Shown piece after piece: positions 1 through 5,498 of a stretch of DNA of 5,498 bases (positions within the stretch are counted from its first letter, which is position 1; each line of letters starts with the position of its first letter). Source of the stretch: Alphaproteobacteria bacterium (GTDB lineage: Bacteria > Pseudomonadota > Alphaproteobacteria > UBA8366). Below the pieces are notes generated by a model that saw only the letters and a program-made list of their open reading frames with translations, was not told where the DNA came from and searched no databases. Location of the stretch: the NCBI GenBank assembly GCA_018665505.1, contig JABJCS010000444.1:1-5498 (forward strand), written 5' to 3'. A program made the translations under genes and the position numbers.

Positions 1-389
1 GGAACGGGGGTGCCCTTCCTTGCCTCAACCGCTGGGTTGCGCTTTGGCGAGGGGGCGCTGTGTACTGGTTTCGTTGGCACAAACGCGGCCTGTTTGATCG
101 GTGGTGCGGTTTTTGGCACTTGTGCTTCCATAATCGGTTTCGTTCTCTGTTCGTCCACCGGCTTTGGTGCCGCCTTCGCGACAACTGGGGCTGATTTAGG
201 TTGCGCGATGGGTTGGGGTACCTCGGCCACATTGTCGACCACTGTCTTTTTCGCTTTATGGCTCAAGGCGTCGATCGCGGAGACCGCGGCTTCAGGAAGT
301 CCCGCTTGGCGGGCGGTCGCGCCGGGATCGCCTACCAGCAGGTAGATGGCGGCGGCGCCGACGGCGATGTTAAATAATAGGAATTTCAT
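1..389 (-). CDS. N-terminal part of a membrane-anchored proline-rich protein, TonB/TolA-like or stator-partner-like; cut by window edge
   Basis: 129 complete codons are visible and the frame is open at the left edge. The start is firm: AGGAG lies 6 bases before the ATG, 9 bases after the stop of the channel-like gene. Residues 3-19 form one hydrophobic helix (FLLFNIAVGAAAIYLLV) that should remain as an anchor, followed by Asp21. After a short helical part (31-55), residues 58-129 are rich in Pro, Lys, Ala and Val, with 16 prolines in 72 positions (for example PKTAPPIKQ), like the periplasm-spanning linkers of TonB-type proteins. The order channel gene then single-helix gene matches exbB-exbD, tolQ-tolR and motA-motB. 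The TonB Ser-His signature in the helix is absent, and so is the mid-helix Asp of ExbD/TolR/MotB. The C-terminal domain, which would settle the type, lies outside the window. Confidence 0.8.
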   Translation of the reverse strand, partial: MKFLLFNIAVGAAAIYLLVGDPGATARQAGLPEAAVSAIDALSHKAKKTVVDNVAEVPQPIAQPKSAPVVAKAAPKPVDEQRTKPIMEAQVPKTAPPIKQAAFVPTKPVHSAPSPKRNPAVEARKGTPV

Positions 390-398
390 GATTATCTC

Positions 399-932
399 CT
401 ACTGGCTTTCATCGGGACGGTGGACCAAAACGTGTTGGCTTTCTTCGATCCGGCTGCGGGTGACGAGCAGGACCGCGCGTAGCGCCGCCGATACCGGCAG
501 GCCAACGACCGTGGACATAAACGCCATGCTGAAATGTTCGGTTAGGCCTTTGATCACCTCTTGGATGGTCTCGGGCGATAATGTTTGGTCTGAAAGACTG
601 CCAATACCGAGGCTGATACCGAGGAGTGTATAGGTCAGCGCCAAAGTGGCGATGCCGTTCGATGCTTGGACACCCGTCTCAAACCAACTGCGATGGCCTG
701 GTGCGTAGGGCGGAATGGCGCGGACCTGAACGATGGCAAGCAAGGCCGTGTAGACCATGCCGGCGAACATCACGATGAAGACCGCGCCGAAGATCCTCTC
801 CGCCCAGTCGACGACCCCGCCGACATCCATAGGTGTCGCGAAAACGGCAATGGCGAGGCCGATGACCGAGAGGCCGAGGAACCCGCTAAGTGCGCGGGAA
901 CCCGCCCCGAATGTCTTGGCGACGGAATGCAT
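399..932 (-). CDS. MotA/TolQ/ExbB-family proton channel-like protein
   Basis: The 177-residue inner-membrane protein has four hydrophobic segments at about 15-33, 47-70, 93-112 and 134-157. Segments three and four match the core of the MotA/TolQ/ExbB family. TLALTYTLLGISLGIGSL (96-113) corresponds to the T...L..TLLG..LGI helix. After a short amphipathic stretch (SPETIQEVIKGL), AFMSTVVGLPVSA (137-149) corresponds to the A...TT..GL.....P helix, with Thr102 and Thr141 as candidate pore-lining residues. Family members assemble as five copies around two single-helix partners and use the ion gradient to drive movement across the envelope. It is shorter than MotA and lacks its large cytoplasmic domain, and it has one helix more than TolQ or ExbB. 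Start: ATG three bases after the previous stop with no Shine-Dalgarno site, so reinitiation is likely. Which subfamily it belongs to I cannot tell. Confidence 0.82.
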   Translation of the reverse strand: MHSVAKTFGAGSRALSGFLGLSVIGLAIAVFATPMDVGGVVDWAERIFGAVFIVMFAGMVYTALLAIVQVRAIPPYAPGHRSWFETGVQASNGIATLALTYTLLGISLGIGSLSDQTLSPETIQEVIKGLTEHFSMAFMSTVVGLPVSAALRAVLLVTRSRIEESQHVLVHRPDESQ

Positions 933-935
933 GAT

Positions 936-1328
936 CTAGCGCCGACGCCGGGAAGCGGCCATCAACGACTTTGCCGATAGGCCCAATTGTTCGAACCAGT
1001 GGTCGGTGACGCTGAGGTTCTTCTCTGCCGAGGCATGCACCAGGAAGCTGGTGTCGTAGTCGGAGAAGATGCGTTTTACGATCGGTGTGTTACGGCCCTC
1101 AAGGGATTTATCCCGAAGGACGATCCGTTCGAGGTCGATCAGACGCTTCTGCGAGAGTGTTGATTTCGAGTGACGTTCTTCCTGGCTCATGTTGGGGTCG
1201 AGCATGGTCTGCAACATGATGGCGCGCTCACGCTCCATGTTCTCGACGCTGCCCGCTTGGGCGTTGGCGGCGATGCCGGCGCTCGCGACGAGCAGGGCGA
1301 TGCCGAGGGCTTTGTGGGTGGGTTTCAT
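936..1328 (-). CDS. Small exported helical protein of unknown function with RRRR C-terminus
   Basis: The 130-residue product has a clean Sec signal peptide (MKPTHKALGIALLVASAGIA..., cleavage after NAQA at residue 25). The mature ~105 residues are strongly charged and helical, with many Arg/Glu (MERERAIM, SQEERHSK, KRLIDLERIVL). A more ordered C-terminal part follows (SFLVHASAEKNLSVTDHW, then FEQLGLSAKSLMAA) and the protein ends in four arginines. There are no Cys residues. The family is unknown to me. The ATG at 1328 is chosen over an in-frame ATG 24 codons upstream. AGGAG stands 8 bases before it, the signal peptide begins there, and the longer version would run back into the preceding gene. 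Its stop is three bases before the start of the channel-like gene, so the two are probably translated in series. Confidence 0.87.
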   Translation of the reverse strand: MKPTHKALGIALLVASAGIAANAQAGSVENMERERAIMLQTMLDPNMSQEERHSKSTLSQKRLIDLERIVLRDKSLEGRNTPIVKRIFSDYDTSFLVHASAEKNLSVTDHWFEQLGLSAKSLMAASRRRR

Positions 1329-1362: not shown

Positions 1363-2244
1363 TCAGAACAGGTTGACCGCGTCCGAGACCTTGGCAGCAC
1401 CGGCGGTGCCTTCGATCACGTCGGCGCCTTCGGAGACGGTCTCCTGTAGGCCCATCGCGTCGAGGGCGACCAGTTTGGCCATTAGGCCGACGATCTCGGA
1501 TTCCTGTTGCAGCACCTGATAGTCACCTTCGGCTTCGGTCAGGAGTTGGCGTAGGAAATCCGGCTTGGTTTTGGCGTCACCGGTGATATCGAGCTTCGCC
1601 TTATGTGGATGCGCCTCGATCTTGGCCACGAGCGCGTTCAAGGCTGAGACGTTCTGGGAGTATTCCTTCGAATACTTCGACGTGTTGGTCAGACTCGTTG
1701 CGAACAGTTTGGCGTCGATGGTATCGACTGATCGATCCAGGCGGGCTCGGGCGGCGGCCTGCTGCTGCACCAATTTCGTCTCCGATGACGTCTTGGCCGC
1801 GGATTCCCGCTCGATCTTATTCAACAGCCGTTGGTAGACCTTGATGCGGGTCTTGAGATGTTTGCTCCGCATGTTGTGCTGCTCCTGCACGATGGCGAGA
1901 TATTCTTTCTTCTCGGCCAGGAATTGATGCTTGAGCTCGACCTGGATATCACCGTCAGCTTGATCGATGGCCGATTGCAGATCGTGGAGCGTCTGTAGCT
2001 TCAGCGCGATTTCCGCATCCGTGTCCCGCAGCGCTTCGGCCAGGGGCGAGGCGTGAAAATCCTTATCGAGCGCCTTTTTGATATTCATGCTGGGCAGCTT
2101 CACCAGACGTTCGGTGATCGATGGCTTCCAAGCCGCACCACCCGGCCGCTGTGCCGCGGCCACGTCTAATGCGGTGAGGGCAGTACCTGCCAGCAACATG
2201 GCGAAGATGCCGTTTCGCAGGGGTTTTTTGAGTGTATGTGTCAT
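1363..2244 (-). CDS. Exported coiled-coil protein of unknown function
   Basis: The 293-residue product begins with a signal peptide (MTHTLKKPLRNGIF..., core AMLLAGTALTAL, cleavage likely after Ala31 in VAAA-Q). An Asp27 near the end of the signal is a little unusual. Residues about 65-160 are long, charged and heptad-like (for example EIALKLQTLHDLQSAI, then HLKTRIKVYQRLLNKIERE), so a coiled-coil or helical hairpin is expected. Residues 160-255 continue mostly helical. No Cys is present. I do not recognise the family. A weak GGGA site 9 bases before ATG supports the start; the gene lies 39 bases after the lipoprotein stop and 34 bases before the next start. A periplasmic rod or spacer working with the stator-like proteins encoded downstream is a reasonable inference, no more. 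Confidence 0.87.
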   Translation of the reverse strand: MTHTLKKPLRNGIFAMLLAGTALTALDVAAAQRPGGAAWKPSITERLVKLPSMNIKKALDKDFHASPLAEALRDTDAEIALKLQTLHDLQSAIDQADGDIQVELKHQFLAEKKEYLAIVQEQHNMRSKHLKTRIKVYQRLLNKIERESAAKTSSETKLVQQQAAARARLDRSVDTIDAKLFATSLTNTSKYSKEYSQNVSALNALVAKIEAHPHKAKLDITGDAKTKPDFLRQLLTEAEGDYQVLQQESEIVGLMAKLVALDAMGLQETVSEGADVIEGTAGAAKVSDAVNLF

Positions 2245-2283: not shown

Positions 2284-2865
2284 TCAGTTCTTTTTCCAGT
2301 ATTTCAACCGCTCGAATTCGGACTCCACCTTTCGGTCGACGTTGAGCATCGAGAGTTCATAAGAACTGGGTACCGCACGCTTACCGGTGAGGATCGACAT
2401 GGTGTCGACGAAGGACGCACCGTTCGGCAGGTAAAGATCGTAATTGCCGAAGGCTTGTTTGAACTTGCCAAGGTTTTCTTGGGCCTTGGCAAGGTCGCCG
2501 CCCTTCGTGTAGTTGACGATCCCGAGGGCATAGGCGCGCATGCGCTCTTCCACCGCGACATGGGCCGCTTCGGGGCCGAGGTCCGCTTCGCATTTCTCGA
2601 TCAAGCGGGCGCTGGCGAGGTATCCGCCGGGATTTCCCTTGGCGCGGGCGTCGGCATCCAATTGCGCCGCGTCATCGACGCAACCGCGATAGTTTTCCAT
2701 CGCGGAGATTTCCTGGAAGCGCGCTTCCCGGAAGCCAATTCCCTCGGAAGGACTGGTGGTGGTTTGACAGGCGGAAAGTAGTAATGCGGCTGTGAGGCCG
2801 GCTAGTCCCGCGACCGCCCTGCGACGGCGCGTTTTTGCGGGAGATTGGGTATTCGTTTTGGTCAT
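2284..2865 (-). CDS. Lipoprotein with helical, TPR-like mature domain
   Basis: The 193-residue product has a basic N-terminus (KTRRRR, residues 11-16), a hydrophobic stretch and a lipobox LSAC at 30-33. Cys33 should therefore be lipidated after signal peptidase II cleavage. Gln at the next position is not the Asp that retains lipoproteins in the inner membrane in enterics, so outer-membrane location is expected. The four arginines hint at, but do not meet, a twin-arginine motif. The mature part is mostly helical. Residues about 112-140 (AYALGIVNYTKGGDLAKAQ...) resemble a single tetratricopeptide-like hairpin, which suggests protein binding. Cys62 and Cys92 could form a disulfide. AAGGAG 7 bases before the ATG supports the start. 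I cannot assign a named family. Being followed by four more envelope genes, it may be the outer-membrane attachment of the complex (inference). Confidence 0.88.
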   Translation of the reverse strand: MTKTNTQSPAKTRRRRAVAGLAGLTAALLLSACQTTTSPSEGIGFREARFQEISAMENYRGCVDDAAQLDADARAKGNPGGYLASARLIEKCEADLGPEAAHVAVEERMRAYALGIVNYTKGGDLAKAQENLGKFKQAFGNYDLYLPNGASFVDTMSILTGKRAVPSSYELSMLNVDRKVESEFERLKYWKKN

Positions 2866-2957: not shown

Positions 2958-3374
2958 CTATTCGATTCTTACGACATCGCCTTTCAAATGAAAGGTCCGC
3001 TTGGCGACAAACTTGTTGCCGGAATCGTCCTTGCCCCAATATTCGACGGTGACGGTTTCCTCGTCCAAAGTAGTGGACACCAAATGACGGGGCTCCGTCA
3101 GGGATTTTCCCGCATCGATGCGATATTCAACCACGGCACTCAGGCATTTTTTCTGCTCGATATAGCAGATTTTTCCTTTGACCAACGTGACACCCACATC
3201 GTTGCGGACGACGTAACGTCGGGCGTGGTGATATTTGTGGTTGCCGTCGACAAATTCGTACTTCAATCGGTCGATTTCCATTACGAAATCGGCTGCCTTA
3301 TCCGCCGCGGTCGCTGTACCGGTGCACGCAAGCCATACACCTACGCTCAAAAAAAGATTGCGATATATCTTCAT
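2958..3374 (-). CDS. Small exported protein of unknown function with a close Cys pair
   Basis: The 138-residue product starts with a Sec-type signal peptide: basic MKIYRN, hydrophobic core LFLSVGVWLACTG, and likely cleavage after Ala23 or Ala24 (ATA-AD). Cys17 lies in the core, but WLAC is not a proper lipobox, so a soluble periplasmic protein is more likely than a lipoprotein. The mature part (~115 residues) looks beta-rich, with alternating strands such as YVVRNDVGVTLV and ETVTVEYWG. Cys70 and Cys77 are close enough for a small disulfide loop. I do not recognise the family. AAGGA 8 bases before the ATG supports the start. It lies 70 bases after the Lon-like gene and 92 bases before the lipoprotein gene, the two widest gaps here. 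It also appears richer in A and T than its neighbours, so it may be a later arrival. Confidence 0.85.
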   Translation of the reverse strand: MKIYRNLFLSVGVWLACTGTATAADKAADFVMEIDRLKYEFVDGNHKYHHARRYVVRNDVGVTLVKGKICYIEQKKCLSAVVEYRIDAGKSLTEPRHLVSTTLDEETVTVEYWGKDDSGNKFVAKRTFHLKGDVVRIE

Positions 3375-3444: not shown

Positions 3445-4803
3445 TTATCGCATCAATGTGAAGGCGGCATCGACCAATTCGATGCCCCGCGCGTTGAGTG
3501 CCCGCCGACGCTCCTCCCAACCGGTCATAATGTTGTCGGGATGGCCGGGCGGAAGTTGCTCGGCAACCCATCCCGATGCGCCGTCGACCGGCTGGTCGCC
3601 CGCCGCGACGACGATATGCATCTTAAAATCCCGTTTTAATCTCCGAGGTAGATCGATTTTCCAGCGTAATTCCCGGCGGCTTGGGCCATGGACGATGGTC
3701 TCGGAAATTTCGCGTTGACCGCTTGGCCACCGGACGTACCGCCCCCAAAGATAGGTTGTGTTTTTATCGGTCTCGGCGATGAATTCGAGCTGGCAGAGGC
3801 CATCGAATTGAGCTGCTTCGAATACCCTATCGCCGCTACGTCCAGCTTCCTTCAGGACGGCTTTTGCCGCACCGAAGTGAACGGCGGCGCAGGTTTTCCC
3901 TTCCGGTGCGCGATGTTCGATCAGTTGAATGCGGACTTGGTCTTTATTCGGCCGGGTTTCGGTCAGATAGTTTTGGTAAATATTGGCGCGTAGCCGGTCC
4001 AGGGAATCGCCGTCCGCGGCCTTACTGAGGGCGGTATCGAGTGCGCGGTATTTGCCTGCGCGCTCGAGTGACATCCAGGTCTTGAACCCTGTTGAGTAGG
4101 CGGTGTACGCGCCCAAAGCGCTGACCGAGAAGAGTAAGGTAATGGCGAGCACGAGGTGCCGGGTCGTATTAACCGGTTTGTCGGGAATTGTTTCCGGTGC
4201 GACGATTACGGGCGGCGTTTTGCCAGTCTTAGGTTTGGTCGTGAGGCCGACAGCATCCAGCGCTTCTGCGACAGTGGCGACACCATGAAGTTCGACGTCG
4301 CTATGCGCCCAGCCGTCAGGCACGTCGTCGATGTTCTCTGACGGTACAATGATGATGACCCGCCCGCCGGCCGCTGAGAGCGCGGTCACGTGATCCTTCA
4401 AACGATTCAGTTTCACCGCGACATGGTCGACGGCCAGAACCTCTAAATCCACGTTTACTTCACCGGTGGCGAAGATATGCACCGCGCCGGTGGAGGCGTC
4501 GCCGATGAAGCGGTCTGCCGATGCCGCAGCATGGCCAAGGTAGAGACCCAATTGCCAACTATAGCCGTCTTCTATAGTAGCGGAGAGGTCGACGCGATAG
4601 GATCCATGACCGAAATCTCGCTGCACGACTCCGGTTGGTTGACGGACGAAATCTTGGTAGGCGTTGCTGATCGGCAATGGCATGGCTTTACCGGCCAGGC
4701 ATACGACGGAATCGATATCGGGATCTTCTTCGGTAATGCGCTGGATGCCGACCGACCCGTTGGTCGTGGCAATAAAGATGCCCAGATCTGCGGGTTCGTT
4801 CAC
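3445..4803 (-). CDS. Membrane-anchored Lon-like (S16) serine protease without AAA+ domain, with periplasmic C-terminal domain
   Basis: The protein has 452 residues. Residues about 8-187 follow the order of the Lon proteolytic domain. DGYSWQLG at 79-86 stands where Lon has DGPSAG, putting candidate nucleophile Ser82 in place. TGEV at 113-116 matches Lon TGE(I/V). LKDHVTALSAAG at 135-146 matches the (L/I)KEKLLAAHRAG segment, putting Lys136 at the catalytic lysine. VIIIVPSEN at 149-157 matches VILPKEN, and VELHGVATVAEALDAVGL at 170-187 matches the closing helix region. About seven extra residues precede Lys136. There is no AAA+ ATPase. A linker rich in Pro/Thr/Lys (188-213) leads to one transmembrane helix (about 217-236). 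With no signal peptide, the protease should face the cytoplasm and residues 241-452 the periplasm. That part is mixed alpha/beta with Cys305 and Cys337, a possible disulfide. The family call rests on motif alignment by eye; activity is inferred. The gene overlaps its upstream neighbour by four bases. Confidence 0.8.
   Translation of the reverse strand: MNEPADLGIFIATTNGSVGIQRITEEDPDIDSVVCLAGKAMPLPISNAYQDFVRQPTGVVQRDFGHGSYRVDLSATIEDGYSWQLGLYLGHAAASADRFIGDASTGAVHIFATGEVNVDLEVLAVDHVAVKLNRLKDHVTALSAAGGRVIIIVPSENIDDVPDGWAHSDVELHGVATVAEALDAVGLTTKPKTGKTPPVIVAPETIPDKPVNTTRHLVLAITLLFSVSALGAYTAYSTGFKTWMSLERAGKYRALDTALSKAADGDSLDRLRANIYQNYLTETRPNKDQVRIQLIEHRAPEGKTCAAVHFGAAKAVLKEAGRSGDRVFEAAQFDGLCQLEFIAETDKNTTYLWGRYVRWPSGQREISETIVHGPSRRELRWKIDLPRRLKRDFKMHIVVAAGDQPVDGASGWVAEQLPPGHPDNIMTGWEERRRALNARGIELVDAAFTLMR
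4096..4155 (-). other. Single transmembrane helix of the Lon-like protein
   Basis: Residues 217-236 of the Lon-like protein are uninterruptedly hydrophobic or small (starting LVLAITLLFSVSALG). They are preceded by Arg215 and several lysines and followed by the charged periplasmic-side region. This divides the protein into a cytoplasmic protease half and an exported half. Confidence 0.75.
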
Positions 4804-5342
4804 CGCAGGAATACCTCCGTCGCGATGTCGCGCAACCCTTTCACTGCATCGGAATTGGCGTCGAGCAAGAGTTGGATACGGCCGTCTCTTGCTTCCGGGA
4901 GTTCGACTTTCGACATCGGTTTGTCTTGGCCGCAGATGAATAATGCGCTTGGCCGGGCGGATTTGTCGGTGAACTCGATGATGATAAAAACTTGGTCCGG
5001 ATCGGCTTTCGACGCGCGGAACGTCATCCGGCACCCGTCGATCTCCCGCGTCGAGATTTCGCCGCTGCTGGCAGCCGCGACCTGGGGCATCCAATAGACG
5101 GAAACGTTCTTGAGTAATGCCTCGAAGTCGCGCCGGACACGACCGTCGGAATCGAGGGCGCGAAGCAGAGCGTCGCTCGGACTGTGATCGGGACGCGTCG
5201 CATAGGCATGGATTTCCGCAAAGCCGACGGTCGTCGTTTTACCACCTTCTTTGAGCAGGCGTCCGGCTATTTCGGTGGCATCCAGAGTATTGCGAACGAG
5301 CGTCAGTTCCCGGTCGTTCAAAGTATTCGGGTCAGTCGCCAT
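4800..5342 (-). CDS. Unrecognised 180-residue soluble protein, possible partner or substrate of the Lon-like protease
   Basis: No signal peptide or membrane helix is visible, so it is expected in the cytoplasm. Residues about 8-32 and 40-79 look helical. The second block (FAEIHAY... ALDSDGRVRRDFEALLK) faintly recalls the helical N-terminal domain of anti-sigma factors, but there is no His/Cys zinc motif. Residues about 95-180 look beta-rich, with hydrophobic strands (VFIIIEF, ALFICG, IQLLLDA) and the ending TEVFLR. The stop overlaps the GTG start of the next gene (GTGA), so the two should be translated together. Together with the opposite overlap at its own start, this makes three linked genes. 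I cannot name the family; a regulator, adaptor or substrate of the protease encoded next is an inference from coupling alone. The start rests on the GGAG site 6 bases before ATG. Confidence 0.85.
   Translation of the reverse strand: MATDPNTLNDRELTLVRNTLDATEIAGRLLKEGGKTTTVGFAEIHAYATRPDHSPSDALLRALDSDGRVRRDFEALLKNVSVYWMPQVAAASSGEISTREIDGCRMTFRASKADPDQVFIIIEFTDKSARPSALFICGQDKPMSKVELPEARDGRIQLLLDANSDAVKGLRDIATEVFLR
4814..4818 (-). promoter_or_regulatory. Ribosome binding site supporting the GTG start of the Lon-like protease gene
   Basis: GGAGG lies 10 bases before the GTG at 4803 on the minus strand, inside the end of the preceding gene. The reading frame is open for a further 97 codons upstream (to an ATG at 5094). 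That extension would overlap the 180-residue gene almost completely and gives a low-complexity, Arg-rich, unprotein-like sequence. The GTG start is therefore chosen. Confidence 0.65.
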
Positions 5343-5496
5343 TGAGGTCTCCATAGAGCAGTTGAAATTGTTGGGTAAAGACCTCCCTGTCTTCCGTAAA
5401 CGGACGACTCCAGTCCGTCTCTTCCGCGCATTTGAGAAACGAGCTCAGTTCCTTGCGTAGCGCCAAAAGTGGCGTCACCGCGTCCGCGAAAGTATC
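5332..5496 (-). CDS. C-terminal fragment of an unrecognised protein, cut by the window edge
   Basis: Only the last 54 codons and a TGA stop are visible; the start lies beyond the right edge. The readable tail is charged and probably helical (it begins DTFADAVTPLLALRKELSSF and ends LLYGDLNGD), with one Cys and no membrane segment. I do not recognise a family. This frame is preferred because it is open to the window edge, has a plausible soluble-protein composition, and its stop overlaps the next gene's ATG by 11 bases (ATGGCGACTGA), a usual sign of translational coupling. It is therefore probably the upstream member of the same operon as the 180-residue protein and the Lon-like protease. The tail does not look like a sigma factor region 4 helix-turn-helix, so its role stays open. 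Confidence 0.7.
   Translation of the reverse strand, partial: DTFADAVTPLLALRKELSSFLKCAEETDWSRPFTEDREVFTQQFQLLYGDLNGD
5349..5352 (-). promoter_or_regulatory. Ribosome binding site that decides the start of the 180-residue protein
   Basis: On the minus strand GGAG is followed by 6 bases and then ATG at 5342. An in-frame ATG four codons earlier (5354) lies inside or before this site and has no Shine-Dalgarno sequence of its own. The start giving MATDP is therefore preferred over METSMATDP. Confidence 0.6.
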
Positions 5497-5498
5497 GA

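Follow-up and report, generated by a model that had tools for sequence, protein, structure and literature searches.

A predicted membrane-anchored Lon-like protease and its recurrent partner gene in an alphaproteobacterial operon

Gene and domain layout of the Lon-like protein

We describe here a gene for a putative membrane-anchored Lon-like protease, P0001, found in a 5,498-nucleotide stretch of DNA (the window) that spans positions 1 to 5,498 of contig JABJCS010000444.1 (assembly GCA_018665505.1), from an alphaproteobacterium of the GTDB lineage UBA8366. The gene occupies positions 3445..4803 of the minus strand, and the open reading frame (ORF) list and translation bear out the 452-residue product reported in a preliminary description of the stretch, including the order in which it read the motifs DGYSWQLG, TGEV, LKDHVTALSAAG, and VIIIVPSEN. 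Its GTG start codon overlaps the stop codon of the gene directly upstream, a member of a second family, P0002. P0001 is a real, conserved gene family, because phmmer recovered 39 homologues (7,994 candidates scored, from 5.8 billion proteins) and a profile built from these 39 recovered 105 (7,995 candidates scored), both counts applying only to the roughly 8,000 best-scoring candidates. Its genomic surroundings were searched with six-frame profiles at 31 loci, comprising a set of 20 (the window, L001, and L034-L051) and a set of 11 further regions (L088-L098) from 10 genomes newly found in a search of the phylum.

The protein begins with a Lon-fold proteolytic domain (residues 4-190; 4234..4794, minus strand), presumably cytoplasmic, followed by a linker (residues 191-215) that is disordered in the predicted model, with a predicted local distance difference test (pLDDT) score below 50, and that varies in length among homologues. 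A single transmembrane helix follows (residues 215-239; 4087..4161, minus strand), as the preliminary description had stated; it is a helix in the model, and hydropathy marks a segment in 100 of the 106 sequences (at the limit used, one segment in 94, two in 6, and none in 6). The C-terminal part is a beta domain (residues 285-452; 3448..3951, minus strand), delimited from the model strands and presumably periplasmic, for which Foldseek gave weak Ig-like matches only. Two cysteines had been noted beyond the helix, and exactly two are there, C305 (kept in 103/106) and C337 (102/106); exactly two also follow the helix in 95 of the 100 sequences that have one. A disulfide between C305 and C337 is probable.

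The orientation proposed earlier, with the protease inside and the C-terminal domain outside, is supported by two lines of evidence. First, among the 100 helix-bearing sequences, the excess of lysine and arginine lies on the N-terminal side of the helix in 77, on the C-terminal side in 5, and on neither in 18, the window protein itself being among the ties (2 and 2). Second, one homologue, encoded in a like operon context in a different genome of the phylum (L091:9724-12345), carries in one chain a Lon domain, a Ser/Thr kinase domain (Pkinase, PF00069, E 3.8e-35), a hydrophobic stretch recognized by eye, and a TonB_C domain (PF03544, E 2.6e-18). As a rule, kinases of this kind act inside the cell and TonB_C domains outside it, so this fusion supports an N-in, C-out arrangement. 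The gene next to the fusion has a marginal FHA match (E 9.5e-4, below the cut-off).

Lon assignment and predicted catalytic residues

Single-sequence searches and family models gave no match to Lon. Specifically, Pfam and NCBIfam returned no family for P0001 at E <= 1 and no Lon match for 40 family members at E <= 0.1, and phmmer with the single P0001 sequence found no PDB chain at E <= 10. P0001 lies below the cut-off of curated Lon models, a limit that marks what a search can detect and is not itself a biological trait. When a profile of 40 sequences was searched against the PDB, its matches at E up to 10 were confined to Lon or Lon-like proteins, 23 distinct sequences in all (best E 0.0026). 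The best of these is the proteolytic domain of Archaeoglobus fulgidus Lon, which we take to be an archaeal LonB. In profile-profile alignment, for which P0111 (a C-terminal fragment) and P0041 were excluded from the N-terminal profile, the Lon score was 55.2, whereas 40 column-shuffled controls reached at most 19.3. Further, Foldseek with the P0001 model gave three matches at E <= 1e-3, all Lon, and the 50 structural-neighbour entries listed (VIA) were all Lon, LonC, RadA, or ComM. The N-terminal domain of P0001 thus has a Lon proteolytic fold, with scores far above chance, and three of the checks that the preliminary description had proposed turned out in its favour: a profile match to S16, a match to the Lon fold, and, once Lys131 is taken as the lysine, conservation of the catalytic pair. 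No AAA+ module was detected by Pfam search, in agreement with its statement that an ATPase domain is absent.

In the hhalign profile-profile alignment, Ser82 (4558..4560, minus strand), in the GxSW motif, falls on the Ser of the LonA motif GPSAG, and Lys131 (4411..4413, minus strand) on the second Lys of GGLKEK. Counting residues, we take these to be Ser679 and Lys722 of Escherichia coli Lon, a pair named in PMC9569914. Ser82 is the predicted nucleophile and Lys131 the predicted general base; each is kept in 105 of 106 sequences, in 20/20 loci, and in 11/11 further loci, these three sets overlapping in part. Hence, of the two residues that the preliminary description had assigned to catalysis, Ser82 keeps its role, supported by both alignment and conservation, while Lys136 does not: just 12 of the 106 sequences have Lys at that position, versus 105 at position 131, and Lys131 takes its place. 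Gly80, Trp83, and Gly114 are likewise kept in 105/106, and the sole miss in that count is the fragment P0111. The Ser, Trp, Thr/Ser-Gly, and Lys positions are all retained in 20/20 loci (in L039 in two pieces) and in the 11 further, mostly more divergent loci, where Gly80 is replaced by Ala in L095.

The best available argument for catalysis is that the dyad stays while other conserved positions go. In the divergent L047-L050, some or all of C35, R70, D72, and H91 are lost and the dyad is kept, and the divergent L049, L050, L094, L096, and L098 retain both GxSW and Lys. This pattern suggests that the dyad is under selection and that the Lon domain of P0001 is a putative active peptidase. It also bears on a different explanation, that P0001 is a catalytically dead Lon-fold scaffold that binds P0002 and cuts nothing. 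RadA and ComM, whose Lon-like domains presumably have no working dyad, are among its close structural matches, and catalysis by P0001 is a prediction; however, an inactive protein need not keep both Ser and Lys, and few residues of this family are as deeply conserved as these two. We regard the scaffold as improbable. The Lon-like domains of RadA and ComM are attached to a DNA-handling helicase or ATPase part; no ATPase domain was detected in P0001. As a separate observation, R70 and D72 (4588-4596), kept in 105/106, align in the global hhalign alignment with the pair of His conserved in the LonA strand that precedes the catalytic Ser, a possible active-site difference.

The P0002 partner gene and the surrounding operon

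The P0002 family gene (4800..5342, minus strand), a candidate substrate or partner, encodes 180 residues from its conserved start. That start is probably the ATG at 5342 rather than 5354, judging from the Met kept in 56 of 57 sequences, the remaining one being gapped there. P0002 lies directly upstream of the Lon-like gene in 20/20 loci and in 10 of the 11 further ones, i.e., in 30 of 31; in L097, the six-frame profile search did not detect it. In the 20 measured loci, both genes are on the same strand, and the distance from the P0002 stop to the first aligned Lon codon is -3 to 50 nt in 18 and 84-85 nt in two. Across 385 genomes of the class, 22 had a match to the Lon-like profile, from which G140, G320, and G378 were excluded given that their matches covered only model positions ~104-245 within frames as long as canonical Lon (779-814 aa). 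All 19 remaining genomes also have P0002, although in G158 the two genes are on different contigs, and two other genomes have P0002 with no Lon-like gene detected, one of them at a contig edge (cut-offs in this comparison were E 1e-3 for the Lon-like gene and 1e-4 for P0002). In the phylum, 13 of 398 genomes had a Lon-like match at E <= 1e-6, some of them also among the 385. The genome of L001 also encodes an ordinary Lon, in an 815-aa frame. Searches of plasmids and phages gave no match to the Lon-like family. Homologues of P0002 include proteins from Hyphomonas adhaerens and Puniceispirillum marinum, each of which probably carries the gene pair.

The predicted structure of P0002 (mean pLDDT 85) has a helical N-terminal and a beta C-terminal part; fold and family searches found no convincing match for it, and it has no obvious membrane segment. 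The two parts are joined by an AAASSG loop (5061..5078, minus strand), where model confidence falls (residues 91-100, pLDDT 73). A93-A95 are identical in 56 of 57 proteins, with the other gapped there, and A94, A95, and L152 are invariant in the 20 loci. A conserved Ala loop encoded beside a protease gene resembles a cleavage site, and we consider it a candidate one. Alternatively, P0001 could process itself, its Lon domain cutting its own linker at residues 191-215, leaving the membrane, and carrying the signal. The disorder of that linker and its variable length among homologues would suit such a release, but the homologue alignment contains no conserved motif in the linker, whereas P0002 has one in its loop. 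Of the alternatives weighed here, we give self-processing the least credence.

Further upstream lies the C-terminal end of a conserved gene of ~543 aa (5332..5498, minus strand), cut by the window edge and identified by its match to profile A3 (E 1.1e-8); its family occurs in 17/20 and 11/11 loci. Downstream, all on the minus strand, are genes for a small protein of 138 aa with a signal-peptide-like start (2958..3374), with a similar ORF recognized by eye in the same place in L001 (L001:11453-11866); a 193-aa lipoprotein with a lipobox-like LSAC (2284..2865; family in 9/20 and 7/11 loci); exported-looking proteins of 293 aa (1363..2244; 10/20 and 7/11 loci) and 130 aa (936..1328); and a multi-helix membrane protein of 177 aa (399..932), the last four being part of a conserved operon. 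The 177-aa protein is highly conserved, with the motif GIATLALTxTLLGISLGI, and recurs in the cluster; it has no family match and no convincing PDB match, and a relation to MotA/ExbB was unsupported on comparison. The product of the gene at 3..389 (minus strand), also cut by the window edge, starts with a hydrophobic stretch and has a long tail rich in proline; relatives of it occur in L001 (E 4.7e-20) and in L035 (E 6.9e-5). SLT lytic transglycosylases occur in 14/20 loci (the window ends before their place) and 7/11. The counts for P0002, the 543-aa family, and the transglycosylases come from six-frame searches; the other neighbour counts for the 20 loci come from ORF picking, and all counts for other neighbours are lower bounds because the greedy ORF choice skipped overlapping genes. 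Overall, the recurring neighbours are largely without annotation.

This setting invites an explanation in which P0001 is a housekeeping or maturation protease of the co-encoded envelope machine that clips, or takes away altogether, the cytoplasmic portions of membrane proteins from the operon and senses nothing, its C-terminal domain serving only to dock it to the machine. It would fit an operon of exported-looking and membrane proteins that often accompanies lytic transglycosylases, and it has a biochemical parallel in MtaLonC, which degrades unfolded proteins without ATP (PMC3391209). Yet the tightest pairing is with P0002, free of any obvious membrane segment, which is kept in L043, L049, and L050, where most operon genes went undetected, and the fusion to a kinase seen in L091 speaks for a signalling role. 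We consider the housekeeping explanation unlikely, albeit the strongest of the alternatives.

Several loci carry additional genes or irregularities. A match to the caspase profile was found in 4/20 and 3/11 loci and confirmed by Pfam in L001 and L094. L094 and L096 have frames of 757-776 aa matching that profile, and Pfam found Sel1 repeats in the L094 frame, the sole one so checked. In L001, the cluster is flanked by a Caspase-SH3 protein (L001:4386-6005) and a DUF4384 protein (L001:18007-19545; with a weak TolB_N match, below the cut-off), and several other loci have profile matches to one or the other. A trypsin-like gene lies downstream in L049 and L050, and L049 has an OmpA gene. In L039 (L039:9160-12534, genome G301), the Lon-like and 543-aa genes are split by stops, through either decay or sequencing error, while P0002 and a transglycosylase match are in single frames.

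Proposed mechanism and comparison with known Lon-like systems

Our preferred interpretation, to which we assign a probability of roughly 45%, is that P0001 is a receptor-like transmembrane protease with P0002 as its most likely substrate. The periplasmic beta domain would act as a sensor for the condition of the envelope or of the co-encoded exported machine, and sensing would switch on the cytoplasmic Ser82-Lys131 protease, probably by oligomerising or reorienting it. Because P0001 has no unfoldase, the protease would need an exposed loop in a chosen substrate, cutting it with no unfolding of the protein, and the P0002 model offers such a loop; the cut would most likely fall in the Ala-Ala-Ala loop between the helical and beta parts. 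The fold, the conservation of the dyad, the lack of a detected AAA+ module, the helix, the orientation bias, and the gene pairing are computational results; we infer the proteolytic activity, the disulfide, the periplasmic gating, P0002 as the substrate, the sensed cue, and the effect of the cut. The Ala triplet may instead have a structural role in P0002. A signalling role is plausible, with its best support in the recurring neighbour gene and the kinase/TonB_C fusion homologue.

More broadly, and as a more doubtful proposal, P0001 may stand for a novel kind of transmembrane receptor in Pseudomonadota, a single chain that signals by proteolysis: across one helix, a periplasmic domain would directly gate a cytoplasmic AAA-less Lon-fold protease, which would cleave its dedicated partner P0002 within the conserved Ala triplet. 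An envelope system not described so far, made up of the 543-aa protein, P0002, the protease, lytic transglycosylases, a lipoprotein, and exported proteins, would have this receptor at its signalling core; one lineage or more has added a Ser/Thr kinase and a TonB_C domain to the same chain. In most Lon proteases described, an ATPase supplies the substrates; a family that keeps the Ser-Lys dyad but has no such motor, with the protease at the inner tip of a single membrane-spanning helix, would relay a signal from outside to inside directly by proteolysis. Since a candidate substrate and a candidate cleavage site are at hand, the idea is testable with two purified proteins, and the recurring, mostly unannotated neighbours provide an entry point to the envelope system.

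The preliminary description knew of no family with this layout. That holds only in part: AAA-less, tethered Lon-like proteases are in print, including YlbL (PMC6051672) and the sensor-bearing CalpL (PMC11417357), while the literature searched, which covered few subscription journals, yielded no description of the exact P0001 layout or of its operon. A term search of PMC7159879 found no mention of Lon. Archaeal LonB and firmicute LonBA share with P0001 a Lon proteolytic domain and membrane attachment, but their chains also contain an ATPase domain (PMC9569914), which was not detected in P0001. LonC is described as a soluble cytoplasmic enzyme (PMC9569914), and MtaLonC (TTC1975) has a possible non-functional AAA-like domain (PMC3391209), whereas P0001 has a membrane helix and no detected AAA-like region. 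In LonA, LonB, LonBA, and LonC, the protease domain is preceded by an AAA+ or AAA-like module; in P0001, the Lon domain starts at about residue 4 and no AAA match was found.

The two AAA-less systems are closer. YlbL of Bacillus subtilis has transmembrane, Lon, and PDZ domains and no AAA+; it is likely located outside the cell and acts on the division inhibitor YneA, with no activity seen in vitro (PMC6051672). P0001 resembles it in combining a Lon-like Ser-Lys protease domain with one membrane anchor and no detected AAA+ module; however, YlbL has an N-terminal anchor and an extracellular Lon domain, while in P0001 the Lon domain comes first and is presumably inside, the helix and the presumably external beta domain follow, and Pfam found no PDZ match. 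CalpL, from type III CRISPR systems, has an N-terminal Lon domain and a C-terminal SAVED sensor for cA4 (PMC11417357), is activated by oligomerisation, and cuts a dedicated partner, CalpT, in two (PMC11417357, PMC12751052). P0001 likewise has an N-terminal Lon domain without AAA+, and CalpT parallels the candidate partner P0002, but P0001 has no SAVED match (Pfam E <= 1, PADLOC E <= 0.01) and a transmembrane helix instead, and P0002 belongs to no known family that we detected. In the text of PMC11417357 that was searched, "transmembrane" does not occur, and a term search for the cleavage site was also empty. CalpL is the nearest working precedent for the proposed mechanism. Judged on its sequence, P0001 combines a Lon fold and dyad, yet fits none of LonA, LonB, LonBA, LonC, YlbL, or CalpL, because it has no detected AAA+ module, no PDZ domain and an anchor on the other side, and no detected SAVED domain. 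Its layout would be the reverse of that of YlbL and a membrane counterpart of that of CalpL, in a family that is widespread.
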